Positions 26,874 through 42,060 of a stretch of DNA of 64,000 bases are shown in pieces. The notes under the pieces are model-generated. The model was not told where the DNA came from, searched no databases, and saw only the letters and a program-made list of their open reading frames with translations. How positions within the stretch are numbered: position 1 is the stretch's first letter; every line of letters starts with the position of its first letter. This DNA is from Hymenobacter perfusus (GTDB taxonomy: Bacteria; Bacteroidota; Bacteroidia; Cytophagales; Hymenobacteraceae): positions 186,001 to 250,000 of the forward strand of contig NZ_RWIU01000004.1 in the NCBI RefSeq assembly GCF_003944765.1, given 5' to 3'. The position numbers were made by a program, and so were the translations under genes.

Positions 26874-26979
26874 GAGGTGTGCGGATTACCGCACACCTCA
26901 GGTCTTACATTCAGGCAGAAATGTAGGGAATTTGTACAGCCAAGCCGAATAGGCCGGCAATTCGCCGGCCTGTTTTTTT
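26874..26979. terminator. Two hairpins between the exporter and the sensor kinase
   Basis: The hairpin at 26951-26971 (AGGCCGGC / GCCGGCCT) has a T7 run on the plus-strand side only. The hairpin at 26874-26899 (11-base perfect stem GAGGTGTGCGG, loop ATTA) has no strong T-run. They follow the exporter stop on the minus strand and may weaken read-through into the two-component genes. Confidence 0.5.
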
Positions 26980-26992
26980 GCGCGAACCGGAC

Positions 26993-29179
26993 CTAATTGC
27001 CCAAATCCAGCTGGTTGTGTACCAGCTGATAGTAGTGGCCCCGCAGGCTGACCAGATCCTCGTGGGTGCCGATTTCCTGCACTTTGCCTTTGTTGAGCAC
27101 CACAATTTGGTCGGCATTCTTCACGGTGCTTAGCCGGTGGGCTACCACCACTACCGTTCGGCCCGCGAAAAAGCGGTCCAGGTTCTCCATGATAATCTTT
27201 TCGTTGTTGGCATCCAGGGCGTTGGTGGCCTCATCGAAAAACAGGAAGCTGGGGTCTTTGTAAATGGCCCGGGCAATGAAAATCCGCTGCTTCTGGCCCT
27301 GGCTCAGACCGTTGCCCTCGGCCCCGATTTTGGTGTTGAGGCCCAGCGGCGAGTCTTTGATGAACTGCTCAATGTTGGCGGCCCGAATGGCGTGCAGCAG
27401 CTTGGGCAGGTCCTTCTTTTCGTCGCTCACCATGATGTTGTTGGCAATGGTATCGGAGAAGATGAAGCCTTCCTGCATCACTACGCCGCACTCCTTGCGG
27501 ATGGCCGTGTGGGAAATGGAGTTGTAATCGGTATCCTCCATGCTGATGCTGCCGGTTTCGGGCTGGTAAATCTTCAGCAGCAGCTTCAGAATGGTGGTTT
27601 TGCCGCTACCACTGTCGCCCACAATGGCCGTTACCTTGCCCGGCGGAATGTACAGATCGATGCCGCGCAGCACGGGGTGGTTGCCCGCGCCAGGGTAGGT
27701 AAAGTTGACGTCGCGCAGGTGAATGGATTTCTCGTCGGGTAGATTGGTAATCAGAAATTTGTCCTCGGGTTCCTCGTCGGGTACCCGGTGGATGTCGTTG
27801 AGCCGGTCCACGCTGATTTTGGCATCCTGGGCCGTTTGCATGAACTGGATGAGCTGCTCCACCGGCAGGTTCAGCTGGCCCACAATGAACTGAATGGCCA
27901 GCATTTCGCCCAGGGTGAGCGTCCCGTTCAGAACGGCCTGCGCCGCATAGAAAATGATGAGAATATTCTTCGTCTGGTTAATAAAGAACGCGCCCAACTG
28001 CTGGTACTGGCTCAGCGAAAGGGTTTGGGTGTTGTAGTTGAACAGCTTGGCCTGAATTCGCTCCCATTCCCAGAGTTTGTAGCTGCCGCAGTCGTTGAGC
28101 TTTATTTCGTGGACGCCGCTGATGAGCTGCATGATGTTGTTCTGGCTGGTGCTGGAAATGGCAAAGCGCTTGTAGTCCAGTTTCTTGCGGTAGCGCAGGA
28201 AGATGGTCACCCAGGCCATATACAGCAGACTGCCGCCCATGAAAATCAGGAAGATGGAGTTGTTGAACGACAGCAGCACGCTCCCGAACACCAGCAGGCT
28301 GATGATAGAAAACAGCGTGTTCAGCAGCGTGCCCGTCAGAAACAGCTCGATGCGGCGCTGGTCGTTGATGCGCTGCATGATGTCGCCGGTGATGCGCGAA
28401 TCGAAGAAGGACAGCGGCAGGCGCAGCAGCTTCATCAGGAAATCGGAGAGGATGGCAATGCTGATGCGACTACTGATATGCAGCAGAATCCAGCCCCGAA
28501 TAAACTCCACCGATGTTTGCCCGATAGACAGCAGCAGCTGCCCGGCCAGCACGATGTAGATGAACTCCACGTCGCGGGTGTTGAGGCCGATATCCACAAT
28601 GGCCTGGGTCAGGAACGGGAGCAGGCTCTGCAGGAACGCGCCCGCCAGCAACCCCACCAACAGCTGCAGAAACAGGCGCTTGTGGCTGCTCAGGTAAGCC
28701 AGAATTTTGGCCACGCCAATGGAGCTGTCAATTTCCTCCTCCACGGAGTAGAAGGACGGCGTGGGCTCCACGAACAGCACAATGCCTTCTTCCTTCACGC
28801 CTTCTCCAATCTGCCACTTCTCCAGAAACTCCGTTTTCCTGTACGAAAGCAATGATTTGCCGGGGTCGGCCACAAACACCCGGTCTTTCTTTACCTTATA
28901 AATGACCACAAAGTGGTTCTGGTCCCAGTGGGCAATGCAGGGCAGGTTGGCTTCCGTGAGCAGGTCTTTGTAGTGCACTTTGGCCCCCACGGCCCGGAAG
29001 CCAATCTGCTCGGCGGCCTTGCTGATACCAAGCAGCGACACCCCGTTGCGGCTGTGGCGGGTTTTCTGGCGCAGCGTTTCAAGGCTGAAGTTTTTGCCAT
29101 AGAACCGGGCTATCATTCGCAGGCAGGTGGGCCCGCAATCCATGGATTCGAGCTGCCGGTAATGAGGAAACGTTGTCAT
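26993..29179 (-). CDS. Peptidase-C39 ABC exporter for GG-leader peptides (LanT-type)
   Basis: The 728-residue protein has three parts. The first is a C39 peptidase domain with C15 (SMDCGPTCL), H89 (DQNHFVVIY) and D105 (VADPGKS) all present. The second is a six-helix ABC membrane domain (about 160-450). The third is a nucleotide-binding domain with Walker A VGDSGSGKTT, signature LSQGQKQRI and Walker B FLFFDEATNALD. Such transporters cut the leader after a double Gly and export the core. All three plus-strand precursors and the Cys-free peptide carry GG at the expected place, so they are the natural substrates. It is the last gene of the minus-strand operon. The HlyD adaptor at 40379 is the likely partner; no channel gene is present in the cluster. 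Confidence 0.95.
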   Translation of the reverse strand: MTTFPHYRQLESMDCGPTCLRMIARFYGKNFSLETLRQKTRHSRNGVSLLGISKAAEQIGFRAVGAKVHYKDLLTEANLPCIAHWDQNHFVVIYKVKKDRVFVADPGKSLLSYRKTEFLEKWQIGEGVKEEGIVLFVEPTPSFYSVEEEIDSSIGVAKILAYLSSHKRLFLQLLVGLLAGAFLQSLLPFLTQAIVDIGLNTRDVEFIYIVLAGQLLLSIGQTSVEFIRGWILLHISSRISIAILSDFLMKLLRLPLSFFDSRITGDIMQRINDQRRIELFLTGTLLNTLFSIISLLVFGSVLLSFNNSIFLIFMGGSLLYMAWVTIFLRYRKKLDYKRFAISSTSQNNIMQLISGVHEIKLNDCGSYKLWEWERIQAKLFNYNTQTLSLSQYQQLGAFFINQTKNILIIFYAAQAVLNGTLTLGEMLAIQFIVGQLNLPVEQLIQFMQTAQDAKISVDRLNDIHRVPDEEPEDKFLITNLPDEKSIHLRDVNFTYPGAGNHPVLRGIDLYIPPGKVTAIVGDSGSGKTTILKLLLKIYQPETGSISMEDTDYNSISHTAIRKECGVVMQEGFIFSDTIANNIMVSDEKKDLPKLLHAIRAANIEQFIKDSPLGLNTKIGAEGNGLSQGQKQRIFIARAIYKDPSFLFFDEATNALDANNEKIIMENLDRFFAGRTVVVVAHRLSTVKNADQIVVLNKGKVQEIGTHEDLVSLRGHYYQLVHNQLDLGN

Positions 29180-29252
29180 ATAGCCGAAAAAGGAAGGAAA
29201 GAAACGGCCCTGCTACCAAGGCCGGGAGCAGGATGGGAGCGGAAAATCGGGG

Positions 29253-30200
29253 CTAAACGGCGGCGGCTTTTTTCGCCTTGACCGGGGGGGCTTTCAGGCT
29301 GAAGGCTTCGCTCCAGAGCTCCAGGGCCACGGCGCGGTCTTTGGGCTTCATGGCTACGTTCATCAGGATAATCTCGTCGAAGCCGTAGTCCTGCTGGTAT
29401 TGCAGGGCCGTGTCGTAGAACTGGTTGGCGGTGCCCACAATGTTGTAGTCGTAGCCTTCCTCGGTGGCGAATACGGCGGCTTTGGCCTTGGCCGTGGTGT
29501 GGTGCACGGCCCCGGCCAGCACCAGGTTGGTTTGCGGATAATGGCCGTGAAGAGCGAAAAAAGCCTCCTTGAACGCCAGCAGCTCCTCCTTGTGAAATTC
29601 CCGGTCGGACCCTTTGTGAAAGATGGAGCGCGAGAGATTCATCTTGTTATCGATGGCGCGCTGTAGGCCCCGGCCCATATTGGTGGTCAGCGACCAGACC
29701 TCGGGAACGGTGCCCTTGAACGGGGGAATGACGGTGCCTAGCTGGAGCAATTCTTCCTCCTCACGCAGGCAGAACAACAGCTTTTCGAGGTGGCGGGCAA
29801 ACGACTCGGGTAGGTTCAGGCCCGCAATACCAGTAGCCAGCTCCGCTACCGTGGGCATCACGCCACCATTGGCCAGGCCCAGGTCAATCCGGCCGGGAAA
29901 CAGGTTGTTGAGCATTTTGTAGTCGCCGGCTACGTGGTAGGGCTGGTGAATGCCCAGCAGAATGCCGGCTACCCCAATCTTGATGCGGCTGGTCATGCCG
30001 GCCAGCAAAGGGAGCAGAATGGTGGGGTTGCTCCAGGACTGCTTTTTGGAAGGAATGTGGTGCTCACTGATCCAGAGGCGGGAAAAACCCAGCAAATCGG
30101 CCCGGCTGGCGTAATCCAGCAGGTCGGTTACGCGCAGCAAGCTGTTCATCTCCGTATGACGAACGCCGAAGTCCAATAAACCAATGGATAGCTTTTTCAT
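29253..30200 (-). CDS. Luciferase-like (LLM) flavin-dependent oxidoreductase of the lanthipeptide cluster
   Basis: The 315-residue TIM-barrel protein of the bacterial-luciferase-like family starts MKKLSIGLLDFGVRHTEMNS. It has LWISEHHIPS, IKIGVAGILLGIHQPYHVAGDY and FPGRIDLGLANGGVMPT, all typical flavin-binding and barrel elements. It lies between LanC1 and the exporter in the same operon (30 bases after LanC1). Related luciferase-like enzymes occur in RiPP clusters, and F420-dependent members reduce dehydroamino acids in some lanthipeptides. Bacteroidota generally lack F420, so FMN is the more likely cofactor. A tailoring redox step on the peptide is inferred, not shown. Confidence 0.88.
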   Translation of the reverse strand: MKKLSIGLLDFGVRHTEMNSLLRVTDLLDYASRADLLGFSRLWISEHHIPSKKQSWSNPTILLPLLAGMTSRIKIGVAGILLGIHQPYHVAGDYKMLNNLFPGRIDLGLANGGVMPTVAELATGIAGLNLPESFARHLEKLLFCLREEEELLQLGTVIPPFKGTVPEVWSLTTNMGRGLQRAIDNKMNLSRSIFHKGSDREFHKEELLAFKEAFFALHGHYPQTNLVLAGAVHHTTAKAKAAVFATEEGYDYNIVGTANQFYDTALQYQQDYGFDEIILMNVAMKPKDRAVALELWSEAFSLKAPPVKAKKAAAV

Positions 30201-30230
30201 GATGGCAGGAGGAGGGTGGAGGAGGAAGAA

Positions 30231-31463
30231 CTAGAAGAGGAAAAGCTGCTCCCAGGACGTTGGGGTATCCAGCATTTCCGTGACGAGAATCAGCAGGATA
30301 CCCGGAATGCCCATCAGCAGCCCGGGCGCGTGCTTATTGGTGAAGGCCTGCCGGTATTCTTCGTTGAGGTAAGTGGTGGTGCGGTGCAGCCAGTAGTGCT
30401 TGGCTTCGGCGTAGCAGGCCAGGGGCATTTCGCGCAGCAGGGCGTTGTAGCACATAACCAGGCTGGCCGAGCCGTGACAGATATGTGCATTCTCGATGCC
30501 GGAGGCCTCCAGCGTGCGGCGGGTACAGGTATACGCGCCTACTTCATCGGCCAGGGCCACCAGGTGGGGTAGTTGCAGAATGCGGGCGGCCCGATAGAGC
30601 ACCAGCACCACGTTCAAATCACCGTAGCACCAGCCCATGCGGTTGTTGTACTTCACGCGGTTCAGCGGTTCACTCGGCGCCGCGTCTTCATCGAAGCGGG
30701 CCGGGAAGAAGGAGTGGTAGCCGTTTGTCGGCTCCGGGGGCAGCTGCAGGCTCAGCATGTACTGGAGCATGCCGGTGGCTACCGGCCGGATTTCCGCCTG
30801 CAGAATGCCGGCCTCATACAATTTTAGCAGCACCAGCAGCAGTCCGCACTGCCCGTGGGCCAGGCCCAGGTTCATGTCGGTGCTGTTGTTCAGGCGGTTG
30901 ATGTGGGAGTTGTAGAACCGTATGCCGCGCGCATCTTCCACCTTATGCGCCAGCAACTCCTGCAACAGGGTGCGCAGGTAGCCGGCGGCGGCGGGGTTGT
31001 GGCCCAGGCGGGTGCTGAGGTAGTTGAGCGCCCCCACAGCACCATACAGAAAATCGATGTTGCGGTCCTGCAGGTTGGCCTGCGTATTCTGAAACACCAC
31101 TTCATCCAGCTGCCGCAGCGTGTCAGTTCCCAGGTCGATGTCGGTTATATCGTCGGTGCTGAGCACCTGCAGCAGGTAGCACAGGCACGGAATCACGCCC
31201 GGCACGCTAATCAGGGCCGATCCGGCCGGGTTCCGGAGCTTGTCCAGCACTTCATCCAGGCAGGTCATGGCGTGCTCCCAGTGGGCTTCCTCGCCCGTGA
31301 GCTTGTAGGTGTAGGCGTATAGCAGCACATGGCCCAGCTTGCCCGAGAACAGGGAAATATCAGTGGCCGGCAGCTGCGGCAGCAGATCCAGCCCTTCCGC
31401 CAGGTAGGCCGACAGCGTTTTCTCAGCGGTAGATGAAGCAGTAGCGGGCATGTTAGTAACCAA
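30231..31463 (-). CDS. lanC: LanC-like lanthipeptide cyclase with intact zinc site (LanC1)
   Basis: The 410-residue alpha/alpha-toroid has the LanC signature: NLGLAHGQCG (His203), NNRMGWCYGD (Cys279) and NAHICHGSAS (Cys329, His330). These are the three zinc ligands and the acid/base His known from NisC, so it should catalyse Michael addition of Cys thiols to dehydroamino acids and close lanthionine rings. Its start overlaps the end of the second LanC-like gene by 11 bases, which implies coupled translation. It has the usual LanC length. Together with the LanB at 37189 this makes the cluster a class I lanthipeptide system. Confidence 0.95.
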   Translation of the reverse strand: MVTNMPATASSTAEKTLSAYLAEGLDLLPQLPATDISLFSGKLGHVLLYAYTYKLTGEEAHWEHAMTCLDEVLDKLRNPAGSALISVPGVIPCLCYLLQVLSTDDITDIDLGTDTLRQLDEVVFQNTQANLQDRNIDFLYGAVGALNYLSTRLGHNPAAAGYLRTLLQELLAHKVEDARGIRFYNSHINRLNNSTDMNLGLAHGQCGLLLVLLKLYEAGILQAEIRPVATGMLQYMLSLQLPPEPTNGYHSFFPARFDEDAAPSEPLNRVKYNNRMGWCYGDLNVVLVLYRAARILQLPHLVALADEVGAYTCTRRTLEASGIENAHICHGSASLVMCYNALLREMPLACYAEAKHYWLHRTTTYLNEEYRQAFTNKHAPGLLMGIPGILLILVTEMLDTPTSWEQLFLF

Positions 31464-32664
31464 TCAGGGAGAGAAGGACAGAGGAGTCGGTTTCGTACTC
31501 AAGCAGGGCCAGGCCGTAGCCGGCCATTCCCTCGAATAGGGAATAGTGGGCGCTGGCCGTCTGCTGATTGTAGTGGCCTTTGTAGCCGGCCACGCAGCCG
31601 GGTTGCTGGCTCAGTTGGTGTGCCTGTTGGTGCCAGTAGGCAGCGGCCTCCTGGAAAGCCGGGCGTTGCATTGTCTGGTACAGTTGCTTGAAAAACAGGC
31701 TGTTGCCGCTGGCGCCATAAATCAGAGAGGCATCGGGGACGCGGCATTCCGGGGCACCCCGGCGGTAGGCTGCCGAAGTAAGCACCGCCAGCGCGGCCGT
31801 GTGCAGGTTTTCTTCCGCAAGGGCCTGGCTGGTTTGCAGCAGGGCAAAGCCAATGCCCAGGTCGCCGTAGCAGAGGTTGAGGCTATTGGAGGGGCCGGGC
31901 TGCCCCACCACGTCGGGAAACAGGTTCAGGCCGTTAGTCGTCTGGTGGGCCAGCAGGTAGTGGCTGGCGCCCCGCATGGCGGCCTGCAACTCCGTTAGCC
32001 GATACGTACTGCCGGTTTGCAGCACTTTGGCCAGGAACAGTAGCACCGCCGCAATGCCATGGCTCCAGCCGGTGTACACCTGGTTTTTGCCAAACAGATA
32101 AGAGCGCCAAAACCCGCCCTGCGCCTCTTCTTCATACGTGCGCAACAGGGTATCCAGCACCTGCTGCACGGCTTGCGCGGCCCCGGCCGTGCGCCGGCCC
32201 AGCAGATACGTGGCCGCCGGCAGGTAGCCCACAAACGGATCAAACAGCTCTCGTTTAGTCAGCAGCGCAATACCCGGCAGCAGTAGCCGGTCTGTTTTTT
32301 CCAGCACCAGCTCAAACGATTCATCCAGGTAGTGCTGCTCGCGCAGGTAGCTAATAACGGTGCCGGCCTCGGCCAACTCCCGGTAATACAGCGGAGAGGT
32401 AGCCGGGTAGCTGGGCAGTACTTTGATGGCCGTCAGCAGAATTTCGGCCGCGCCGGCCGCGTACGTTTCGCTCTCGGTGAGGGTGGCGTAGGTGTGCAGG
32501 AACAGAAATGGCCCCAACCGCCCCCCCGACAGCCCCGGGCTGGCTGGCAGCTCCGCGCGGTTGGCCAGCAGAAAATCGGCAATGGCGCGGAGCTTTTCCA
32601 ACAGCGGCTCTGCTTCCGCTTCGGCCAGCAGGTGGGCGCTACTTGATGCGGCTTTCTTCATCAC
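31453..32664 (-). CDS. Degenerate LanC-like protein lacking two zinc ligands (LanC2)
   Basis: The 403-residue toroid is aligned with LanC1 through LGPFLFLHTYA, YTGWSHGIAAVLLFLAKV (His202), NSLNLCYGDLGIGFALL (Cys265) and DASLIYGASGNSLFFKQ. The LanC Cys-His pair is replaced by I315-Y316, so two of the three zinc ligands are gone while Cys265 and the SHG His remain. It is unlikely to bind zinc normally. It may be a structural or substrate-binding partner of LanC1, an immunity protein, or act on a different chemistry. It overlaps the receptor gene by 26 bases upstream and LanC1 by 11 bases downstream, so it is part of the operon rather than a relic; no frameshift or stop is seen. Confidence 0.88.
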   Translation of the reverse strand: MMKKAASSSAHLLAEAEAEPLLEKLRAIADFLLANRAELPASPGLSGGRLGPFLFLHTYATLTESETYAAGAAEILLTAIKVLPSYPATSPLYYRELAEAGTVISYLREQHYLDESFELVLEKTDRLLLPGIALLTKRELFDPFVGYLPAATYLLGRRTAGAAQAVQQVLDTLLRTYEEEAQGGFWRSYLFGKNQVYTGWSHGIAAVLLFLAKVLQTGSTYRLTELQAAMRGASHYLLAHQTTNGLNLFPDVVGQPGPSNSLNLCYGDLGIGFALLQTSQALAEENLHTAALAVLTSAAYRRGAPECRVPDASLIYGASGNSLFFKQLYQTMQRPAFQEAAAYWHQQAHQLSQQPGCVAGYKGHYNQQTASAHYSLFEGMAGYGLALLEYETDSSVLLSLIGY

Positions 32665-35077
32665 CGGAGGCGTTGCGGCTCTTGGAAGAAGCCTTGATTT
32701 TCTGGTTGCCGAAGCTGTAGGTAAGCGTGGCCTGCAGGAAGTTGGAATCCCAGCGGTACAGGGAGCGGGTGCGCAGGTTGCTGAAGCGAGTATCGGTGAG
32801 GGCGCGGGAGGTTTTCAGCACGTCGTTGTACACCACCCGCAGCGCGAGCCGGTCGGCCAGGAATTTCTTCTGGAGCCCGAGATTTACCGAGTATTGCCCC
32901 CGGTTGCGGCTCACGCCATACGGGGCCGCGCTCTGGAAGTAGCCCGAGACGCTGGCATTCCAGCCACCCTTGATTTTGAAGTCGTTGGTCATGCCGTACA
33001 CCCCCGAAAAGCCGCGAATAGTCTGGGGCGCGTTTTCGGTGGACTGCAGGGAATAAATGCTGTAATAGCCGTTGAAAAAGTTGGAAATATTCCACCACGC
33101 AAAGGGCGCGTACGGGGCCGTTATGGTAAGGCCATATTGGCTCTGGCTATTCAGGTTTTCGGCTCTTGACTGGGTGACCAGGGAAGTAGGGGTTTCGCGC
33201 TGCGTAACCCACGAAATCAAATTGTTCGTCCGGGAATAACCGGCCGCAATTACGTAGGTGCCATTTACGGTATAGGTTACATCAATATTATTTGCGTATT
33301 CAGGCCGGAGAAATGGGTTGCCCTGTGAGTAGGAATAAATATCCTGAAAATAAATAAACGGGTTCAGATCCTGGTAGCTGGGGCGTTGTAGTCTGCGGGA
33401 ATAATTCAGGCTTAGAAAATCATCTTTGCCAATGGCCTGATTCAATAATATGGAAGGAAAAAAATTAGTATAGTTTCGCTTATTGAGAATGTTGCTAGTA
33501 ACCAAATGGCCTTCCGACCGTGTGTTTTCCAGTCGGCCACCAATTCGGTAGTCCAGATTTTTGATTTTGCCACTATAGCTCAGATACGCAGCCATGATAT
33601 TTTCTTTATAAGAAAAGTAATTGGTGCGTTGGGGGTCATTTACCCAGTCAATTTCCCGGTCGAGCTTCTCGTAGCGGGCATCATTATCCGTTTCTACCCG
33701 GCTGAACTTGAGGCCGGCTTCGAGCTTGTGCGTACCAACGGTCTGCTCGTAATCGGTTTGGGCCGCCAGAATCTGGATGGCGGTTGGCAGCACGTTCCGC
33801 AGGCTGATGCCCGGGGCCAGGCTATTGCCCTCGGGCGTGGTGAAGGAGTTGACAATGAGGTTCGTCTGCCGGCTGTCGTAGTTGGAGTAGTCCAGATCAG
33901 CGGAGATGGTGCGCACCGAGTCGATGGTATGGCGCAGCCCCAGGTTGCTGGAGTATTGGGTGGTGCCGTATTTCGTATCGGTGAGGCTGAGCAGCGTAGA
34001 ATCCGGGGTGGCGGCGTAGCGCAGCAGCTGGGTGGCGGCCGTGGCATTGCGCGTCTTGTCGGAGGTGAAGCCCCGCAGGTAGAGGTTGACGCTGGTGCGG
34101 GGGCTCAGGGTCCAGTCGAGGCCGGCGCGGTAGTTATGCGCCAAGGAGCGGGACGGATTTACCAGGTCAGTTTTGTGGGTGGTCAGGACCTGGTCGGTGG
34201 CTTCGTCCAGGTAGTCGAGGCGGTTCTGCTCGGTGGTAGTCACCTGCCGGGCCGATAAGGTGTAGCCTGCCGACAGAGCCATGGCCCCGCGCCGGTGGTT
34301 GAGGCTGAGGCCCAGATTCTGCCGGCTGTTCTTGGTGAAGGCCCCGCCGGCCGTTACGGTAGCTTTGGTGCCGTCCTGCAGGCCTTTCTTGGTGACAATG
34401 TTGATGACGCCGCCCGGACCTTCGGCGTCGTAGCGGGCTCCGGGGCTGGTTATCAGCTCTATCTGCTGCACCTCATTGCTTTGCAAGCCCTTCAGAAACA
34501 CGGCCAGGTCAGCCTCCGACATGTAGGTTTTCTTGCCATCCAGGATTACCGTGGCGCCCTTGCCGTTCAGGGTGATGGACTCGCTCTTGGGGTTGACGTA
34601 GATGCCCGGCGACTTCTCCAAGACCTCCAGCGCGGTGTAGCCGGAAGCCAGCACTGTGTTGGAGATGTTCACAATCATGCGGTCCGGCTTCTGGATGATG
34701 GTGGGCCGGGTGGCCGTAATGGTTACCTCTTTCAGGGCCGTGGCATGGTTGGCGGCCAGCCGGACAGCCAGGCGGGCCACCGGCTCGCCGGCGGTTACGC
34801 GCACCAACCGGCTGTCGGAGCTGAAGCCGATAAAGGAGGTTTTGAGCAGGTAGCTGCCCGCTGCCACGCCCGGCAGGCTAAAGGTGCCGGTGGCATCGGT
34901 AGTGGTGGCCGTAACGTGCGTGGAGTCCTGGGCCTTGAGCAGTACCACGGTAGCAAATTCCACCGGTTCCGGCCCTTCGCCCAGCACCTGCCCGGCAATG
35001 GTAACGCCCTGAGCCCACGTCGGCGCGGTGCTCAGCAGCCAGAAGAAAAGTGCGAGTAGAATCCTGCCGTGTCGCAT
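32639..35077 (-). CDS. TonB-dependent-receptor-like outer-membrane barrel leading the lanthipeptide operon
   Basis: The 812-residue protein has a signal peptide (about 1-22, TAPTWAQG), a carboxypeptidase-regulatory-like domain (about 25-110), a plug domain (about 120-225 with VLEKSPGIYV, LNGKGATVILDGKKTYM and RYDAEGPGGVINIVTKKG) and a large C-terminal barrel of the outer-membrane beta-barrel type (OMP_b-brl_3-like). The barrel ends QATLTYSFGNQKIKA. It is the first gene of the minus-strand operon and overlaps LanC2 by 26 bases. In this setting it may import or export the peptide, or bind it for self-protection or uptake. The central barrel part (about 33.2-33.6 kb) is more A+T-rich than the rest. 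Confidence 0.92.
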   Translation of the reverse strand: MRHGRILLALFFWLLSTAPTWAQGVTIAGQVLGEGPEPVEFATVVLLKAQDSTHVTATTTDATGTFSLPGVAAGSYLLKTSFIGFSSDSRLVRVTAGEPVARLAVRLAANHATALKEVTITATRPTIIQKPDRMIVNISNTVLASGYTALEVLEKSPGIYVNPKSESITLNGKGATVILDGKKTYMSEADLAVFLKGLQSNEVQQIELITSPGARYDAEGPGGVINIVTKKGLQDGTKATVTAGGAFTKNSRQNLGLSLNHRRGAMALSAGYTLSARQVTTTEQNRLDYLDEATDQVLTTHKTDLVNPSRSLAHNYRAGLDWTLSPRTSVNLYLRGFTSDKTRNATAATQLLRYAATPDSTLLSLTDTKYGTTQYSSNLGLRHTIDSVRTISADLDYSNYDSRQTNLIVNSFTTPEGNSLAPGISLRNVLPTAIQILAAQTDYEQTVGTHKLEAGLKFSRVETDNDARYEKLDREIDWVNDPQRTNYFSYKENIMAAYLSYSGKIKNLDYRIGGRLENTRSEGHLVTSNILNKRNYTNFFPSILLNQAIGKDDFLSLNYSRRLQRPSYQDLNPFIYFQDIYSYSQGNPFLRPEYANNIDVTYTVNGTYVIAAGYSRTNNLISWVTQRETPTSLVTQSRAENLNSQSQYGLTITAPYAPFAWWNISNFFNGYYSIYSLQSTENAPQTIRGFSGVYGMTNDFKIKGGWNASVSGYFQSAAPYGVSRNRGQYSVNLGLQKKFLADRLALRVVYNDVLKTSRALTDTRFSNLRTRSLYRWDSNFLQATLTYSFGNQKIKASSKSRNASGDEESRIK

Positions 35078-35581
35078 AGCTTCGTCGAGTTTGAATTTCT
35101 TCCGAAGTAACCCGACGCCCGGCAGCTCCGGAAACTTTTTCGACTAAGTGGAAGCTGCCATAGACGTATTGAAAGGGCTCTGTATCCTATCAGAAGTAAG
35201 CCTTAGTGGCTGTCAGCAGGCTTGTCGGCGTTTTCAGGGTGTGCTTTTGTCACCCATTTACGGCTACCACTTTCAGGATTCCTTAATGCAATAGATGCGT
35301 GTTCAATAGGGTTGATTTTCAGGTTTTTAGTTCTGGTTCGAGGGCGGGGGGTAAGGTGCCTTTTTCATGCTAATGCACCTGTTTTAGCCGTGCACAGAAA
35401 GCAGTAAATGCGTTTTCACGGGACCATATTTTTCAGTGTCCGCCAGGAAATTGCCACTTGGTCGAAATACAGTGGCTAGTTTATCCTTCATATGCTGCGG
35501 TTGGTCTAGTTTATTTTTTTAGGGGGTAGTAGTAGTATTCATTTGTTTCATCAGCGGTGTACTTCTCTAACCAGAAAGCTT
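35078..35581. other. Divergent regulatory gap of the lanthipeptide cluster
   Basis: This 504-base, A+T-enriched gap lies between the receptor operon (minus) and the peptide genes (plus). It must hold both promoters. A near -7 box (TTCATTTG, one mismatch to TAnnTTTG) is at about 35538-35545, but no convincing -33 partner was seen. A 61-codon open frame at 35222-35407 has no supporting signals and is not called. Confidence 0.5.
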
Positions 35582-35773
35582 ATGAAAGTCTTGCAGAATT
35601 TTATAAAGTCATTCGGTAAAAAAACCTCCAGCTATGTTTCGGGCGAGAGTTTTTTATCTGTGAATGAAATGGATTTAGTTTTCGGAGGTAAGCCCGAAGA
35701 AGTTAAATCTGATGATGCCTATTGGTGGATCGAGGAGCAGGATTTATCGGATATAAATACACTCGCTAAGTAG
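35582..35773 (+). CDS. GG-leader peptide with Cys-free acidic core
   Basis: The 63-residue peptide is read from the ATG at 35582. A basic N-terminus (MKVLQNFIKSFGKK) is followed by LSVNEMDLVFGG (Gly35-Gly36), a typical double-Gly leader end, and a 27-residue core that is acidic, contains two adjacent Trp, and has no Cys. Thus no lanthionine can form. It could be a linear bacteriocin, a signalling peptide for the LytS-type kinase, or a RiPP modified in another way by LanB-made dehydro residues (it has Ser and Thr). It is the first plus-strand gene of the cluster and sits in an A+T-rich stretch. An earlier in-frame ATG at 35543 is unlikely because it adds residues unlike a leader. Confidence 0.75.
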   Translation: MKVLQNFIKSFGKKTSSYVSGESFLSVNEMDLVFGGKPEEVKSDDAYWWIEEQDLSDINTLAK

Positions 35774-35904
35774 TATTTATATGGTATTGCTGGTAAGGCA
35801 GCGCAATGCTATTTTATATGCCTTTTTTAATTTCTCTGAACCATACGTGAGGAAGCCGGCCCTCACTGGTTGCATAGTTCCTTTCATTCATCCCCAAAAA
35901 AATT

Positions 35905-36093
35905 ATGAAAAAGAAATCCATCTCCCTGGACAAGTCCCTTTCCCTGGACAAGGAAACCGTAGCCAAGCTCAATGAAGACCAGCTGGGCGACGTAGTTGGT
36001 GGCGGTACCACCAACACCTGCAACAACGTGCCCGCTCAGGAACTCGAAGCCATTCCCACCATCAATTCCTGCCAGGCTTGCTCCTGCAGTTAA
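35905..36093 (+). CDS. lanA: Class I lanthipeptide precursor A1
   Basis: The 62-residue peptide has a leader MKKKSISLDKSLSLDKETVA followed by KLNEDQLGDVVGG (Gly32-Gly33), which fits the Bacteroidota class I lanthipeptide leader pattern K-K-x-T-[IV]-x-x-L-N. The core after GG holds TTNTC near its start and SCQACSC at its end, with 4 Cys and 5-7 Ser/Thr, enough for three or four rings. A tandem SLDK repeat in the leader comes from a repeated TCCCTGGACAAG. The C39 exporter should cut after GG. A second copy lies 224 bases downstream. Confidence 0.92.
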   Translation: MKKKSISLDKSLSLDKETVAKLNEDQLGDVVGGGTTNTCNNVPAQELEAIPTINSCQACSCS

Positions 36094-36128
36094 TCAGTCC
36101 CTTTCCACTTCCAAAACAGCCAGAACCC

Positions 36129-36323
36129 ATGAAAAAGAAATCCATCTCCCTGGACAAGTCCCTTTCCCTGGACAAAGAAACCGTAGCCAAGCTCAATGAA
36201 GACCAGCTGGGCGACGTAGTTGGTGGCGGTACTACCAACACCTGCAACAACGTGCCCGCTCAGGAACTCGAAGCCATTCCCACGATTGGCTCCTGCCAGG
36301 CTTGCTCCTGCAACGGAGGCTAG
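36129..36323 (+). CDS. lanA: Class I lanthipeptide precursor A2, tandem duplicate of A1
   Basis: The 64-residue peptide is read from the ATG at 36129. It is identical to A1 for residues 1-53, then Asn54 becomes Gly and the final Ser becomes Asn-Gly-Gly. Most of the base changes against A1 are synonymous (AAG/AAA, ACC/ACT) or clustered at the two altered positions, so the duplication is recent. An upstream in-frame ATG at 36078 belongs to the A1 3' part and is rejected. The 4 Cys and the ring-forming Ser/Thr at the C-terminus are kept. The two products should be processed alike and could act as a pair or as variants. Confidence 0.92.
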   Translation: MKKKSISLDKSLSLDKETVAKLNEDQLGDVVGGGTTNTCNNVPAQELEAIPTIGSCQACSCNGG

Positions 36324-36462
36324 GTAATACGCAGATGCTACGGGAGGGCTGTTGCTCTTCCGTAGCACCTGTATTGCCCGCGCTGCAAAGCGTTGCGTCA
36401 CCAGAGTAAAGCCCTCTTGCACTCCGCTGCCGGGTTGTGGGTCTTCGTAGTAAATCCATCCT

Positions 36463-36603
36463 GAGAAGAAGAAACCCGTTTTTCTGCTCAAGCTGCTGGC
36501 CCCGGATAAAGCCACCATCACCTGGCTCAGTAAATTGAGCCAGGAACCAAACCGTCGGGCCGGGCGGGTCGCAAACCGCTCGTTCAGGCGGTTTTCCTGT
36601 TGA
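36463..36603 (+). pseudogene. Decayed lanthipeptide precursor relic (leader remnant)
   Basis: Reading 36463-36603 gives EKKKPVFLLKLLAPDKATIT, then WLSKLSQ, ending at TGA. It keeps the spacing KKK-x-[IV]-x-L-x-K-x-L-x-x-D-K-x-T-[VI]-x-x-L of the A1/A2 leader, about ten identical or similar positions in twenty. The initiating codon is GAG instead of ATG and an in-frame TAA lies 9 bases further upstream; the GG and the Cys-rich core are gone (core replaced by Arg-rich noise with one Cys). The stretch sits in the 396-base gap between A2 and A3. It looks like a dead fourth copy; chance similarity is the alternative. Confidence 0.55.
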
Positions 36604-36719
36604 AAAAGCACCCGGCTGCGCTACTGACAAGGGCCATGCCCAAGAGTTAATATTCATTCAGGAGGTGCAAGGGCAGGGTCCTTGCCCCGGCGTGAGCTTC
36701 CTGCTAACGTACATCCGCA

Positions 36720-36932
36720 ATGAAGAAGAAGAAATACATTCAGTTGAACGCCGCCCTGGTGCTAGGTAAGGAAACCATTACCCGCCTCAGTGAAGAGCAG
36801 CTGCAGGATCTGGTGGGCGGGCAGGTAACCGAGGGCGTTATCACCCAGTCATCGTGCGGGGCCTTCAGCTGCAACCCCGTTGACTGTTACGGTGGGCCGC
36901 GCGGAGCAGACGCTCCCAACCAACCCGGGTAA
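36720..36932 (+). CDS. lanA: Class I lanthipeptide precursor A3
   Basis: The 70-residue peptide has the leader MKKKKYIQLNAALVLGKETI, then TRLSEEQLQDLVGG (Gly33-Gly34), related to but distinct from A1/A2. The core of 36 residues carries SSC, FSC and DCYGG with 3 Cys and several Ser/Thr upstream of them, so up to three rings are possible, and ends in a Pro/Gly-rich tail (GGPRGADAPNQPG). It is followed by a strong terminator before lanB. The different core suggests the cluster makes at least two distinct products. Confidence 0.9.
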   Translation: MKKKKYIQLNAALVLGKETITRLSEEQLQDLVGGQVTEGVITQSSCGAFSCNPVDCYGGPRGADAPNQPG

Positions 36933-36948
36933 CTTCCCGCCACAGGCA

Positions 36949-36999
36949 GAAAGAAGCGCAGCAGGCCTGGCATTATGCACTGCCTGCTGCGCTTCTTTC
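36949..36999 (+). terminator. Terminator/attenuator between the precursor genes and lanB
   Basis: A perfect 18-base stem (36949-36966 with 36982-36999, GAAAGAAGCGCAGCAGGC and complement) with a T-rich right end lies 17 bases after the A3 stop. It would let precursors be made in excess over LanB. Confidence 0.8.
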
Positions 37000-37064
37000 C
37001 CTTGTGGCTAACCCGGTTGAGCCGCCGCGCCGCTGCTGACCAACAGGATAGCTATGAGCAGATA

Positions 37065-37079
37065 TAAACTAGTAGTTTA
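37065..37079. promoter_or_regulatory. Small dyad upstream of lanB
   Basis: TAAACT-AGT-AGTTTA is a perfect 6-base dyad about 110 bases before the lanB start and after the terminator. It is a possible operator for a separate lanB promoter. Low certainty. Confidence 0.35.
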
Positions 37080-37188
37080 AACGCCGAATAATGCGCTAAT
37101 CTATTCTGCCGCCCGTATTTCGCCGCCGTGCGGGCCGTGTGTATTCGTAACGGGCGGGAAATCTCATTCACTTATTACGCGTAGTTCC

Positions 37189-40100
37189 ATGGCTGCCACG
37201 CCCTCCCTGAAACTGGAATCGGAGAAGTATTACCTGCTGAGGAAACCCCTGCTGCCACTCCAGACGGTGCTTGACCTGAACGAGCAAACCCGGCAGGAGC
37301 CCGCGCGGCTGGGGCCAGCGTTATTGCATTTGTTCCGCGACGAGCAGTTGCAGGAGGCCATCTACACGGCCTCGCCGGAGCTGTACGCGGAGCTGCACAA
37401 AGTGCTGGCAAAGGGCCTGGACCCTGCCGGCAAGGATGACCGGCTGGTGGCCACGCTCTACAAGTACCTGATCCGGATGAGCATGCGCTGCACGCCCTAC
37501 GGGCTGTTTGCGGGCTGCGCGAGCGGCGAGCTGGCGGAAACTACCACGTTCGATTTCACCGGGGCACCGCCCCTGAAACAGTCCCGGCTGGATATGAACT
37601 ACGTGAATGAGCTGGTGAAGCACCTGCTCACGACCACCGAGGTGAAATACCAGCTGCGCTACTTCCCCAACAACAGCCTGTACGCCATTGCCGACAGCTA
37701 CCGGTACGTGGAGTACAAGGTCAAAAACAAGCGCCGACACTATTCCATTACTTCGGTCCGGAAATCGAGTTACCTGGAGGTGCTGCTGCAGGCGGCTGGT
37801 CCGGGCATCCACTTTGCCCGGCTGGTGGAACTGATACAGGCCGAGGAGCCGGAAGCTACGCCAGCGGAGGCTCAGGCCTATATTGAGGAACTGATTGATT
37901 CCCAGCTGCTGATCAGTGAGCTGGAGCCCACCATTACGGGCGCGGTGTTTTTTGAAGGGCTCCCGCAGAAGCTAGCCGGTAAAGTAGCGGCCCCGGTGGT
38001 AGCGCAGGTAGCGGAAATCCAGCAGCTGCTGGAAGCCGGCGGCGTACGCAACTTTCAGCAAGTACACCAGCTGATTAATACCTCCTTCGGGCAGTCCAGC
38101 TCCAAGGATTTGATTCAGACTGACCTCTTTTTCAGGCCGGAGAGCAACACGCTCAAAACGGAGGTGATAGAAACCGTGACCAGTCAGCTCAGTGAGCTAT
38201 TCGCGCTGGCCAACAAAACCAACCTGCCGGACCTGGAACGCTTCAAGAAAGACTTTGTAGAGCGTTTCGAGGACCGTGAAGTACCCCTGCTGCTGGCGCT
38301 GGACAGCGAAACCGGCGTGGGCTACGGCCGCGCCGAGGTGGGCCGCAGTGACCACCTGCCGCTGCTGGATGGCATCACGCCGCGTGCCGCCGCCCCCCCC
38401 AAAAGCTCCGAGTGGAAGAAGTATACGCAGCTGGTGCATCGCCTCTTCCGGCAGGCGGCGGCCACCGGCGCCCAAGCCGTGGAGCTGACTCCCGCCGACC
38501 TGGCCGGCCTGGAGGAAAAGCCTGATTTGGGCCGCCATACGCCCGCCAGTCTCTATGCTTTCGGCTCTCTGTTGGCCAGCTCGCCGGCCGCCCTGGACGC
38601 GGGCGACTTCCGGTTTGCGCTGGGCGTCTGCTCGGCCCCATCGGCCGCGAATCTGCTGGGCCGCTTTTGCTACGGCGACACCAAGCTGCTCGATAACGTG
38701 AAAGCCAGCCTGCAACGAGCCGAGCCTGACACGGAAGAAGCCGTGTACGCGGAAGTGGTGCACCTGCCCGAGGCGCGCATTGGCAACATTCTGATGCGGC
38801 CCCATTTGCGGACGTACGAAATTCCGTTTTTGGGGCTGTCGGCCGCGCCGGCCGAGCACCAGATTACGGTGCAGGATCTGCGGGTATCGGTGCGGCAGGG
38901 GCAGTTGGTGCTCCGCTCGGCCCGGCTCAACAAACGCGTTATTCCCCGGCTGTCCTCGGCGCACAATTACACCACGGGGCTGCCCATCTACCGCTTCCTG
39001 TGCGATTTGCAGAAGCACGACATCTATTTCGGGGTGAGCTGGTACTGGGATAACCTCAGCTCGGAACCGTTTCTGCCCCGGGTGCAGTACCGGAATATCA
39101 TCCTGACCAAAGCCACCTGGCACCTCACGCTGGCTGATCTGCAGCCGGGCGAGGGCCGCAAAAAGACCCTGACGGAAGCCGCGTTGCAGCAGCAGTTGGT
39201 GGACCGCAAACTGCCCCGGTTCTTCTGCCTGACCGACCACGACAATGAGCTGCTCATTGACAGCCACCACGCGGTGGCCCGGCAGCTGGTGGTGCAGCAG
39301 CTGGAGAAGAAAGGTCGCGTGACTCTCACGGAGTTTCTGGCTACGCCGGATAACTGCCCGCTGCAGGGCCCGGGCAACACCCACTACACCAACGAGCTGC
39401 TGCTGCCGCTCTACAACGGGGCATATATGCCGCCGGGTACGCCGGCGCGGGCGTTGCCGTTGCCTGATGTAACGCGCAGCTTTGCCCCGGGCAGTGAGTG
39501 GCTGTATCTGAAGCTCTATGCCGGTACCAAAACCATGGACCGGGTGCTGACCGAGAAAATCAGGCCGCTGGTGGCGCAGCTGCTGGCGGAAGGCGTCATC
39601 GATAAGTGGTTTTTTATTCGCTACAACGACCCTCATCACCACCTGCGGGTCCGCTTTCATGTGCCAGTAGGGCAGGAAAGCCGGTTTGCGCAGGTCGTGC
39701 AGGCGGTGCAGCAGGCCCTGGCCCCGGAACTGGCGGAAGGACTAGTGCACAAGCTCCAGCTCGATACCTACGTGCGGGAGCTGGAGCGCTACGGGGCTAC
39801 CAACATAGAAAACTCAGAGTCGCTTTTCTACCACGACAGCCAGGCTATAGCCAACGTGCTGAGTCTGCTGGAAGGTGACGAAGGTGAAACCTACCGCTGG
39901 CTGCTGGCCCTACGGGGCCTCGATGAGTTGTTGACGGATTTCGGGCTGGAGCTGCCGGCCAAGAAGCAGGTGCTGCAGCAGCTGTCGGAGGCGTTCTTCC
40001 AGGAGTTCAACGGCGACAAATCCCTGCAGGTGCAGCTCAACGAAAAGTACCGGCAGGAGTCGCGCCGGATCCGGAGCTTCCTGAACCCGGCCGAAGACGA

Positions 40101-40389
40101 GCTTAACGGCATTGAAGACGCCACCCACGAGTTTCTGGTCCGGCGCCGGGAGTCTCGGGGAACGGTGGCGGCAATCCAGGCCCTGTATCCGCAGCCCCTG
40201 CCAGCTTCTGCGGCCGGTTTCAGCCTGCTGGCCAGCTACGTGCACATGTACGTCAACCGCTTTGTGCTGTCGAAATCCCGCCTGCATGAGCTAACGCTCT
40301 ATGGCCTCCTGCACAAGTACTACACGGCCCAGGCTGCTATGGAAAAGAAAACTATTTCTGGCCCTAAAATCGTGAGCTATGCCCTCTGA
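37189..40389 (+). CDS. lanB: Full-length lanthipeptide dehydratase LanB
   Basis: The 1066-residue protein covers the large N-terminal glutamylation domain of LanB (from YYLLRKPLLPLQTV through about residue 700, including LIRMSMRCTPYGLFAGCASG and the SPF/RXXY-type core FLPRVQYRNIILTKATWHL) and the C-terminal elimination domain of the SpaB_C type (about 770-1040: SEWLYLKLYAGTKTMDRVLT, WFFIRYNDPHHHLRVRFHV). LanB uses glutamyl-tRNA to activate Ser/Thr and then eliminates glutamate to give dehydro residues. Pinensin-type clusters in this phylum have a split LanB; this one is fused. It overlaps the HlyD gene by 11 bases. Confidence 0.95.
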   Translation: MAATPSLKLESEKYYLLRKPLLPLQTVLDLNEQTRQEPARLGPALLHLFRDEQLQEAIYTASPELYAELHKVLAKGLDPAGKDDRLVATLYKYLIRMSMRCTPYGLFAGCASGELAETTTFDFTGAPPLKQSRLDMNYVNELVKHLLTTTEVKYQLRYFPNNSLYAIADSYRYVEYKVKNKRRHYSITSVRKSSYLEVLLQAAGPGIHFARLVELIQAEEPEATPAEAQAYIEELIDSQLLISELEPTITGAVFFEGLPQKLAGKVAAPVVAQVAEIQQLLEAGGVRNFQQVHQLINTSFGQSSSKDLIQTDLFFRPESNTLKTEVIETVTSQLSELFALANKTNLPDLERFKKDFVERFEDREVPLLLALDSETGVGYGRAEVGRSDHLPLLDGITPRAAAPPKSSEWKKYTQLVHRLFRQAAATGAQAVELTPADLAGLEEKPDLGRHTPASLYAFGSLLASSPAALDAGDFRFALGVCSAPSAANLLGRFCYGDTKLLDNVKASLQRAEPDTEEAVYAEVVHLPEARIGNILMRPHLRTYEIPFLGLSAAPAEHQITVQDLRVSVRQGQLVLRSARLNKRVIPRLSSAHNYTTGLPIYRFLCDLQKHDIYFGVSWYWDNLSSEPFLPRVQYRNIILTKATWHLTLADLQPGEGRKKTLTEAALQQQLVDRKLPRFFCLTDHDNELLIDSHHAVARQLVVQQLEKKGRVTLTEFLATPDNCPLQGPGNTHYTNELLLPLYNGAYMPPGTPARALPLPDVTRSFAPGSEWLYLKLYAGTKTMDRVLTEKIRPLVAQLLAEGVIDKWFFIRYNDPHHHLRVRFHVPVGQESRFAQVVQAVQQALAPELAEGLVHKLQLDTYVRELERYGATNIENSESLFYHDSQAIANVLSLLEGDEGETYRWLLALRGLDELLTDFGLELPAKKQVLQQLSEAFFQEFNGDKSLQVQLNEKYRQESRRIRSFLNPAEDELNGIEDATHEFLVRRRESRGTVAAIQALYPQPLPASAAGFSLLASYVHMYVNRFVLSKSRLHELTLYGLLHKYYTAQAAMEKKTISGPKIVSYAL

Positions 40390-41308
40390 AAACTACTACC
40401 ACAGTGAGGTGAAGGAAATCATGCTCACTAAGCCCAGCTGGATTCTGAAGTGGGGCAACGTCATCATTCTGGGGCTGTTGCTGCTGGTATTTGCTTTTGC
40501 GGCCTTCTTCACTTATCCGGAGTCGCTCACCACGGCCATCACCCTCACGGCAGTGCGGCCGGTGGAGGTACTAAAGCCCCGGCCCATGAATTGGGGTATC
40601 CAAGCCGTGCTGGTGAAGGACGGGGCCACGGTTGTGCCGGGCACGCCGCTGGTTGCCTGGTACGATGCCGCTCAGGCCGATTACCGCGAAGTGCTCCGGC
40701 TGGAAAAGCTGCTGCGCGCCTATGCTGCCCAACCGCCGCTACCCGCTGGTACAGCCCCAAGTCAAAGCCTGCTGCGCCGTTTCTTTAAAGTAGACACCCT
40801 GAAGCTGGGCAACCTGCGCGGCACGTACCGGATGCTCAACCAACAGCTGCTGAAGCAGCACGATATTCCCGCCAACCACGTTGCGCAGGGCCTGCGCCAG
40901 GTAGCCGCCTGGAAAGCGGAGTTTGTCTCGGTGGCGCACAGCGCGGGGCAGGCCCGCATCAACTACAGCCTGCCCCAAACAGCCACGCCGGTAGCCGCTA
41001 CCCAACCCATCGTGTACGTGCAGCCCCCGGCCGCCGAGTACGTAGCACATGGCTACATTACCGACGCGCAGTATGCCGCCGTAAGCACCGGCCAGAAGGT
41101 ATTTGTGACAGTTGCCGAGCTGGGTGGTACCCGCATAGTGGGGCGGGTGCTGGGCGTAGCCCCACTGGCCGAGAACAGCCGGCATAAAGTGTTTATTCGC
41201 CTGTTGCCGACCGAGAAAATGGTGTTGAACGCTACGTTTTCCGGCACGGCCCGCATTGTGCTGCACAACCGGCCCCTGCTGGAAAAATTCCTGTCCATCA
41301 AGAGCTGA
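40379..41308 (+). CDS. HlyD-family adaptor for lanthipeptide export
   Basis: The 309-residue protein has a short cytosolic tail (MPSENYYHSEVKEIMLTKPS), one membrane helix (VIILGLLLLVFAFAAFFTY), a lipoyl-like strand region (WGIQAVLVKDGATVVPGTPLVAWYD), a helical hairpin and a C-terminal beta-barrel part (QKVFVTVAELGGTRIVGRVLG). This is the membrane-fusion adaptor form used with C39 ABC exporters. It overlaps lanB by 11 bases, so it is translationally coupled. With the exporter on the other strand and a TolC-type channel it should build a type I-like secretion path across both membranes. Confidence 0.9.
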   Translation: MPSENYYHSEVKEIMLTKPSWILKWGNVIILGLLLLVFAFAAFFTYPESLTTAITLTAVRPVEVLKPRPMNWGIQAVLVKDGATVVPGTPLVAWYDAAQADYREVLRLEKLLRAYAAQPPLPAGTAPSQSLLRRFFKVDTLKLGNLRGTYRMLNQQLLKQHDIPANHVAQGLRQVAAWKAEFVSVAHSAGQARINYSLPQTATPVAATQPIVYVQPPAAEYVAHGYITDAQYAAVSTGQKVFVTVAELGGTRIVGRVLGVAPLAENSRHKVFIRLLPTEKMVLNATFSGTARIVLHNRPLLEKFLSIKS

Positions 41309-41316
41309 ACTCCCCA

Positions 41317-41382
41317 CCCAGAAAACCGGCGGCCTGGTACCCACACTGCATAAGGTGGGTGCCGGGCCGCCGGTTTTCTGGG
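41317..41382. terminator. Bidirectional terminator after the lanB-hlyD operon
   Basis: Perfect 18-base arms (CCCAGAAAACCGGCGGCC at 41317-41334 and its complement at 41365-41382) contain a second inner stem around GGTACCCAC / GTGGGTGCC. It starts 9 bases after the hlyD stop and also faces the receiver gene coming from the right. Confidence 0.8.
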
Positions 41383-41399
41383 GAAATGTGGGCCATGGA

Positions 41400-41777
41400 T
41401 TACTGCTTAAGCAATGCCAGGGCCTGCGTGACTACCTGCTCGAACATCGGATACGTGAAAGGTTTGGTCAGGACTTTTAAATAGCGTATTCCCAGGCTCT
41501 GAACAAAGGATTCGGGGTACGCGGTGGTGATAATGACGTTCTGAAACTGATCCGCGTTTACGCGCACACCGTCGCCAATGCGGTAGGAGTCATTGGGTTT
41601 GTCCAGCAAATCCAGGAAGACCAGATCCACCGAGGGAGTCTGTTGCTTATCAACCGTATCGGATAAAGACTCGATACACCACGCCAGGCGCAGCTGGTTG
41701 TAGCGCTGCACATACTTGGTAATAAGTGCGCGGGCTAATTCTTCATCTTCTACTATTCCACAAGTGAAAACGCGCAT
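41400..41777 (-). CDS. Receiver-only response regulator
   Basis: The 125-residue protein is read from the ATG at 41775-41777; an upstream extension to 41870 overlaps the terminator of the next gene and is rejected. It has the acidic pair (ED10-11), phospho-acceptor D56 (VDLVFLDLLD), the TTAY switch and K105 (VLTKPF), so all phosphorylation residues are present. It resembles the receiver half of the LytTR regulator at 24973 but has no output domain. It may act as a phosphate sink or adaptor for the LytS-type kinase. It converges with the hlyD gene and lies behind the terminator of the minus-strand peptide gene. Confidence 0.8.
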   Translation of the reverse strand: MRVFTCGIVEDEELARALITKYVQRYNQLRLAWCIESLSDTVDKQQTPSVDLVFLDLLDKPNDSYRIGDGVRVNADQFQNVIITTAYPESFVQSLGIRYLKVLTKPFTYPMFEQVVTQALALLKQ

Positions 41778-41835
41778 ACGTAAGGGGCAATTAGGTGCTG
41801 CTGTAGGGGAGAAGAGGAGGGTTAAGAGCGCAAAA

Positions 41836-41878
41836 AAGGCTGTTTGGAGTTGCTTCCGGAGCAACCCCAAACAGCCTT
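41836..41878 (-). terminator. Rho-independent terminator after the minus-strand peptide gene
   Basis: An 18-base stem with one mismatch (AAGGCTGTTTGGGGTTGC paired with GCAACTCCAAACAGCC) carries a T6 run on the minus strand. It lies 38 bases after the peptide stop. Confidence 0.8.
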
Positions 41879-41916
41879 GACGAGCAATTCTGAAAAAGAA
41901 TAGTTCGGGGAGGTAA

Positions 41917-42060
41917 CTATACCGCGCGGCTGGTGCAGAGCGGAGTGGAAGTCAGGTGGTCTTCGGTAATAAACAGCAGGCTGGCACCGGTGGTAGAAAG
42001 ATTGGTAACGGTTTCTTTTTTGATGTGGAGTTTCTGGGTAAGAGCAGTAATCGTTTTCAT
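41917..42060 (-). CDS. Lanthipeptide-like precursor without GG site (A4)
   Basis: The 47-residue peptide is read from the ATG at 42058-42060. The N-terminal MKTITALTQKLHIKKETVTN, followed by LS, fits the leader pattern L-x-[IL]-K-K-E-T-[IV]-x-x-L-[NS] of the Bacteroidota class I precursors, but no double Gly follows. The C-terminal half is rich in Ser/Thr with a single Cys (HLTSTPLCTSRAV). One ring at most could form. It is on the strand opposite to LanB with its own terminator. It may be a further substrate needing another protease, a signal peptide, or a diverged member. A longer in-frame start at 42162 would add a non-leader segment and is rejected. Confidence 0.65.
   Translation of the reverse strand: MKTITALTQKLHIKKETVTNLSTTGASLLFITEDHLTSTPLCTSRAV

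Follow-up and report, generated by a model that had tools for sequence, protein, structure and literature searches.

A class I lanthipeptide cluster of Hymenobacter perfusus with two LanC paralogues, one of them zinc-less and a candidate metal-independent cyclase

Class I lanthipeptide clusters are already known in the Bacteroidota. Nearly a quarter of the class I LanC cyclases in one survey came from Bacteroidetes (PMC7268733), class I peptides of Chryseobacterium (ChmA) and Runella (RuiA) have been produced with their own LanB and LanC (PMC9993889), and PedA15 of Pedobacter is named as another Bacteroidota class I lanthipeptide in PMC12328550. The pinensins of Chitinophaga pinensis belong here as well and are made with a split LanB (PMC7268733). 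The system described here lies in a stretch of 64,000 nucleotides of Hymenobacter perfusus (contig NZ_RWIU01000004.1, positions 186,001 to 250,000), hereafter the window, in whose numbering coordinates are given. It is a class I lanthipeptide cluster by domain matches with E-values that rule out chance. With the ChmA, RuiA and PedA15 systems it shares LanB and LanC, and its cyclase with an intact zinc site, LanC1, should work as theirs do; it differs from them in its enzymes, the cores set aside, since the accessible texts on those systems describe neither a zinc-less second LanC nor a luciferase-like (LLM) partner. From the pinensin system it differs, again with the cores set aside, in its LanB, which is in one piece. 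An earlier reading of this DNA from its letters (the sequence-only reading) had inferred an unusual Bacteroidota lanthipeptide system and had pointed to its fused LanB. Neither the phylum nor the fusion is out of the ordinary: such clusters are common in the phylum (PMC7268733, PMC9993889), and among 204 genomes of the same family 45 gave a LanB match, the best match covering at least 990 of 1066 residues in 44 of them (four of these 44 contain one stop codon), two-piece LanBs being met in other families. The truly unusual feature is not the fused LanB but the zinc-less second LanC.

Outside class III, every cyclase domain has been said to conserve the zinc ligands strictly and to require them for catalysis (PMC10604976). 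In LanC-type enzymes the zinc activates the thiol and a histidine delivers the proton to the enolate, which is steadied by a further residue, in bacterial LanCs mostly a tyrosine (PMC9934072). LanC1 carries the Cys, Cys, His zinc site of class I LanCs, as the sequence-only reading had seen, and its likely start is the ATG at 31451 and not the TTG at 31463. The same reading recognized the second LanC-like gene, LanC2, but did not notice the loss of its zinc ligands. In this protein, which we call LanC-Y, the places of the ligands Cys, Cys and His are taken by C264, I314 and Y315, two of the three ligands being gone, and the acid histidine H201 is kept. The tyrosine that follows the first ligand place we take, on our reading of the alignments, to be the counterpart of the enolate-steadying Tyr285 of NisC and His277 of LanCL1. 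By this alignment LanC-Y would keep both the protonating histidine and the steadying tyrosine, and it has lost the zinc side. It is 402 residues long, PF05147 is its sole match above cut-off, and it has no fused lyase or kinase domain of the class III LanKC type. Its predicted model (pLDDT 85.4, pTM 0.87) has the alpha/alpha-toroid LanC fold, with Z-scores of 34.3 to MadC and 33.6 to NisC (356 residues, root-mean-square deviation 3.1).

The loss of two zinc ligands could be the mark of a decaying duplicate, an explanation to which we give almost no weight. The ratio of nonsynonymous to synonymous substitution rates (dN/dS) of LanC-Y against the related locus L033 is 0.088, which is purifying selection (LanC1 gives 0.112 in the same comparison), and zinc-less proteins of this kind form a single clade, with the histidine and tyrosine kept, across at least four families (handles f1, f3, f7 and f125). 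With the zinc columns masked, a tree of 62 LanCs unites 25 zinc-less proteins, LanC-Y among them, in one clade (support 99/99) and the LanC1-type partners in another (n=16, support 100/100). Once these columns were masked, intact LanCs were free to enter the LanC-Y clade, and none of 35 did. The tree covers triad-intact and Tyr- or Phe-type LanCs, with L033, L040, L054, L076 and repeats set aside. Of the LanB/LanC phylogeny proposed in the sequence-only reading, the LanC tree puts LanC1 and LanC2 in separate supported clades, LanC2 lacking the zinc triad, and LanC2 as a recent duplicate of LanC1 is rejected on this ground. None of the 25 clade members has the full triad; the ligand histidine is replaced by Tyr in 22 and by Phe in three, the first Cys persists in 15 and the second in one, and 23 have the acid histidine. 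Three residues are invariant in an alignment of 14 members: the acid histidine, the Tyr that follows the first ligand place, and the Tyr that stands where the ligand histidine would be. A separate, second His-to-Tyr change occurred on the LanC1 side, in G286 and G490 (L143, L144); these loci keep both LanCs and LLM, both LanCs are zinc-less, and the cores bear Cys.

The distribution of LanC-Y was followed in 204 genomes of the family (by LanB) and in 395 of the phylum, 395 of the class and 341 of the order (by LanC-Y profiles), sets that overlap. Eighty-four stretches, some overlapping, were scanned for LanB, LanC and LLM; a contig scan with two short patterns, which is not a census, confirmed five loci. 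Both LanC clades occur together with LanB in 15 stretches (the window, L033, L035, L042-L044, L143, L144 and L204-L210), and every one of the 15 holds an LLM gene scoring above 300 bits; the order LanC-Y, LanC1, LLM is conserved in 13, the exceptions being L143 and L144. Hymenobacter frigidus (L090 and L034) also has the pair and LLM and is counted outside the 15 because its LanB sits on another contig. LanC-Y without a LanC1-type partner was found in 12 distinct stretches (L036-L041, L093, L142, L145 and L212-L214), and no LLM was found in any of them, nor in a further 11-15 kb read from G116, G028 and G081, since the stretches L036, L038 and L039 stopped shortly past LanC-Y. In the tree of LanBs, four loci with LanC-Y alone (L036, L038, L039 and L041) nest beside the group of the window with an SH-aLRT of 99, suggesting that LanC1 and LLM were lost jointly; L037 is misplaced in this tree, where its nearer LanB, from a neighbouring second cluster, was used. 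Cys-bearing precursors with a double-glycine (GG) leader, having one to three core Cys, are present in 11 of the 12 lone loci, none being detected in L145. A Pfam search, which can miss divergent members, turned up no intact LanC in five Hymenobacter genomes with LanC-Y (G028, G051, G062, G081 and G082), and LanC-Y is the only LanC found there apart from another, likewise zinc-less, LanC-like group.

Metal-free cyclization has a precedent in the class III enzyme ThurKC, in which Ser, Phe and Asp occupy the ligand places and Phe and Asp are needed for cyclization; noursin-type LanKCs use a histidine as nucleophile (PMC10604976, PMC10206099). The ThurKC cyclase domain shares the LanC fold with LanC-Y (Z 25.3) and likewise lacks the zinc ligands. 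They differ in that ThurKC has lost the acid histidine, whereas the LanC-Y clade mostly keeps it and mostly has Tyr at the ligand histidine, and in that LanC-Y is a single-domain protein that goes with LanB, ThurKC being a LanKC. Because the lone LanC-Y loci hold Cys-bearing precursors, because five genomes were found without an intact LanC, and in view of these precedents, we judge LanC-Y more likely to be an active cyclase that needs no metal than a dead partner. The cluster is then probably a class I cluster of a variant kind, with two old and different LanC paralogues, in which LanC-Y would act as a metal-independent cyclase in tandem with LanC1.

The main competing explanation is that LanC-Y is a non-catalytic partner that sets the order of the reaction by binding the leader, the dehydrated core or LanB/LanC1, all ring closure falling to LanC1. 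The lost zinc ligands would suit such a role, as would the adjacent, nearly overlapping genes and the intact LanC1 that stands beside LanC-Y in the window and likewise in 12 further loci whose stretch includes LanB. We regard it as the less likely of the two, given the 12 loci where neither an intact LanC nor a LanC1-type partner lies on the stretch, the five genomes just mentioned, and the retention of the acid histidine in nearly all clade members.

Several observations weigh against the active-cyclase reading. In the window LanC-Y need not be catalytic, because an intact LanC1 is there too, and the ThurKC mechanism need not carry over to it, since ThurKC also swaps the acid histidine for Asp. 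Two clade members have lost this histidine (Cys in L210, Asn in L214). Zinc loss alone is not special, because other kinds of zinc-less LanC-like proteins exist outside the masked-tree sample: those of L114, L195, L198 and L203, and a 24-member LanC-like group without zinc ligands or acid histidine. The count of 24 excludes repeats (L107-L110) and identical rows; in an earlier LanC tree this group was represented by six rows, with L107-L110, L114 and repeats left out. The association with LLM has exceptions in L065, whose LLM is accompanied by only one LanC, an intact one, and in L146, a LanC1-clade member without LLM. The link between the LanC pair and LLM also has few independent origins, with three supported contrasts, all concordant (sign test p 0.25); this test used 41 rows, without L034, L040, L054, L070, L071, L076, L211 and L216-L219 and without loci having no LanC or only the His-less kind. 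Over the 84 stretches, LLM above 300 bits occurs in 16, the sixteenth being L065, and L075 has a distant one of 105 bits.

For the active-cyclase reading we infer the following flow of regulatory, chemical and export steps. The operons would be switched on by a histidine kinase/LytTR pair, and Ser and Thr of the GG-leader precursors would be dehydrated by LanB. Thioether rings would be closed by LanC1 with its zinc, and LanC-Y would catalyse a Michael addition without metal on these same peptides, having presumably retained residues for binding and protonating the dehydroamino acid while lacking the thiol-activating zinc. The LLM enzyme, which travels with LanC1, could act on leftover dehydro-residues, most simply by reduction, as proposed for the luciferase-like LanJC enzymes of the birimositide cluster, which would yield D-Ala (PMC7268733). 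The C39 exporter would finally cleave after the GG and export the product together with the HlyD-like protein; passage across two membranes, predicted in the sequence-only reading, is plausible. LanJC and the window enzyme are both PF00296 proteins in lanthipeptide clusters and are likened by family only; LanJC belongs to a Streptomyces two-component system with class II type precursor families, unlike the window (PMC7268733). The closest solved structure to the window LLM is MsnO8 (4us5, E 1.2e-16), and the gene is under strong constraint (dN/dS 0.031). L207, L208 and L209 have two adjacent LLM genes, and their zinc-less LanC has Phe instead of Tyr.

A further-reaching version may be put forward only tentatively. 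In it LanC-Y would be a true metal-independent class I cyclase with Tyr in place of zinc, perhaps using a nucleophile other than a zinc-bound Cys thiolate; the peptides it makes together with LanC1 and LLM would bear cross-links of two kinds or D-residues. The unit would be old, extending over at least four Bacteroidota families. If so, metal-free cyclization would be wider than class III, and the LanC-Y system would offer a clean setting in which to ask what part zinc plays and how a single peptide is divided between two cyclases. The bare combination of LanB with a triad-undefined cyclase has been counted before, because the B-Unk entry of a cyclase survey comprises 14 predicted peptides closest to LanB with an undefined-triad cyclase (PMC11251773). 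In the available text of that paper B-Unk is a table entry without clade or pairing analysis, and the stem 'bacteroid' does not occur in the main text. The literature searched yielded no zinc-less LanC clade that stands beside a class I LanB with a partner LanC and LLM, a weak negative with mostly open-access coverage.

Two cyclases might also reflect two kinds of substrate. LanA1 and LanA3 combine a class I leader with a Ser/Thr/Cys core and exceed the NF038153 cut-off, and LanA2 has the leader of LanA1, so that the three GG-leader precursors of the sequence-only reading stand. Core type A has TC or SC early and SCxxCSC at the end; core type B reads SSCxAFSCNPxxC. Type A and type B genes number two and one in the window and L033, and four and one in L034 and L035, and in all four loci the type B gene is the precursor nearest LanB. 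The two core types together in 4/4 loci give good support to the earlier view that this Bacteroidota class I cluster makes at least two products. A division of labour in which each LanC serves one precursor type, with no new chemistry, fits the window, L033 and L035, where the two core types occur along with the two LanCs, and likewise H. frigidus across its two contigs (L034, L090). We consider this improbable: the Pontibacter loci (L042-L044), G1009 (L205, L206) and G950 (L204) have both LanCs and, by eye, one core type each, and it leaves the zinc loss unexplained. LanA1 and LanA2 (35905-36323) are near-identical tandem copies.

The features of the cluster are collected below. Each gene named in the sequence-only reading lies at or very near its stated place; the exporter, the HlyD adaptor, the outer-membrane receptor-like protein and the LLM enzyme each have a Pfam match.

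Features of the lanthipeptide cluster in the window (scores in bits unless marked otherwise; percentages are likeness to the named locus)
Feature	Coordinates	Strand	Evidence and remarks
LytTR-type response regulator	24973..25734	-	PF00072 82, PF04397 68.6; beside the histidine kinase in L090 (67%) and L035 (65%)
Histidine kinase, PF06580 type	25735..26847	-	92.9, cut-off 25.2; L033 98.9%, L035 67.6%, L090 70.8%
C39-peptidase ABC exporter	26993..29179	-	PF03412, PF00664, PF00005
LLM (luciferase-like) flavoenzyme	29253..30200	-	PF00296 78.2, cut-off 27.9; MsnO8-type, under the cut-off of that NCBI model
LanC1, zinc-intact cyclase	30231..31451	-	PF05147 116.5; NisC 2g02 E 1.8e-4; Cys, Cys, His and acid His present
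LanC2 (LanC-Y), zinc-less LanC paralogue	31453..32661 (ATG 32661)	-	PF05147 88.5
Outer-membrane beta-barrel protein, TonB-receptor-like	32639..35077	-	PF14905 347, PF13620 52; 55% in H. frigidus L090
Conserved upstream stretch, probable promoter or regulator site of the precursor operon	35455..35520	+	two motifs
Cys-free GG-leader peptide	35582..35773	+	mature part KPEE..AYWW.E or close; conserved in L033, L034, L035
Precursor LanA1, core type A	35905..36093	+	NF038153 (class I lanthipeptide) 55.7, cut-off 22
Precursor LanA2, core type A	36129..36323	+	LanA1 leader, few core residues differ; assigned by likeness, no profile score
Precursor LanA3, core type B	36720..36932	+	NF038153 40.9, cut-off 22
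Full-length LanB dehydratase, single 1066-aa protein	37189..40389	+	PF04738 594, PF14028 239
HlyD-like periplasmic adaptor	40379..41308	+	PF13437 29.8, cut-off 22.2
Receiver-like protein without output domain	41400..41837	-	PF00072 24.6 (below cut-off 30.2), E 2.9e-5; L033 92%, L035 45%
Non-GG precursor-like peptide, TSTPLC near end	41917..42060	-	NF038153 21.0 against 22; L035 relative E 7e-9 (pairwise), beside the same receiver-like gene

The LanB has both glutamylation and elimination domains at profile level, over 648 of 649 (PF04738) and 255 of 255 (PF14028) positions; its nearest solved structures are the LanB-like enzyme 9g04, 5ehk and NisB 4wd9 (E 2.3e-27). The cluster had been placed at 26993-42060. 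The high end of this range is kept; the low end was too short, and we extend the cluster to about 24973-42060, with a histidine kinase, LytTR regulator and receiver-like gene, because kinase and regulator recur beside the exporter and the receiver-like gene recurs in relatives. Kinase and regulator adjoin the exporter in L033 (where the regulator is truncated at the stretch end), L035 and L090; the kinase has a dN/dS of 0.017 against L033. On the minus strand the outer-membrane protein, LanC2, LanC1, LLM, exporter, kinase and LytTR regulator genes form a tight run, the first two overlapping (32639/32661) and the two LanC genes almost touching. The plus-strand run comprises the GG peptide, LanA1, LanA2, LanA3, LanB and HlyD, the last two overlapping, and beyond HlyD the receiver-like gene and the short non-GG peptide lie on the minus strand. 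The window belongs to a genome of 5.1 Mb in which LanB was matched once and LanC-like proteins twice; its nearest named relatives by LanC2 are H. frigidus (L090, 52%) and a Hymenobacter metagenome-assembled genome (L091, 53%).

The Cys-free GG peptide noted earlier is conserved in all three of the relatives with an examined precursor region; profile scans gave no family above cut-off, and with its conserved mature start it could be a signal peptide for the histidine kinase/LytTR pair. The motifs of the probable promoter, located by two pattern searches only, stand in the same or nearly the same form upstream of this peptide in L033, L034 and L035. The non-GG peptide, also noted earlier, differs from its L033 relative at 9 of 141 bases, few differences from which to read a dN/dS of 0.69; conserved gene order supports it as a real gene, since its relatives in L033 and L035 have the same receiver-like neighbour. 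Similar peptides adjoin histidine-kinase-like genes in L207, L208, L209 and L213.

A different module was met in 20 stretches of the same family, with a short Thr/Ser-rich non-GG peptide that in 16 of the 20 has no Cys after residue 24 (L080:8002-14751 as example; others in L037, L039, L053-L059, L074, L077-L079, L081, L083, L085, L086, L088 and L089). A full-length LanB and an L080-like histidine kinase are present in all 20, a LytTR regulator in 18 at the cut-off used, and a zinc-less, His-less LanC-like protein in 19 (not in L057). This module may be a dehydrated-peptide signal system. In L062-L064 and L066-L071 a LanB gene is present but the retrieved stretch showed no LanC, and weak matches to the Thr-rich peptides occur in L064, L067 and L069 (E 0.69 to 0.09).

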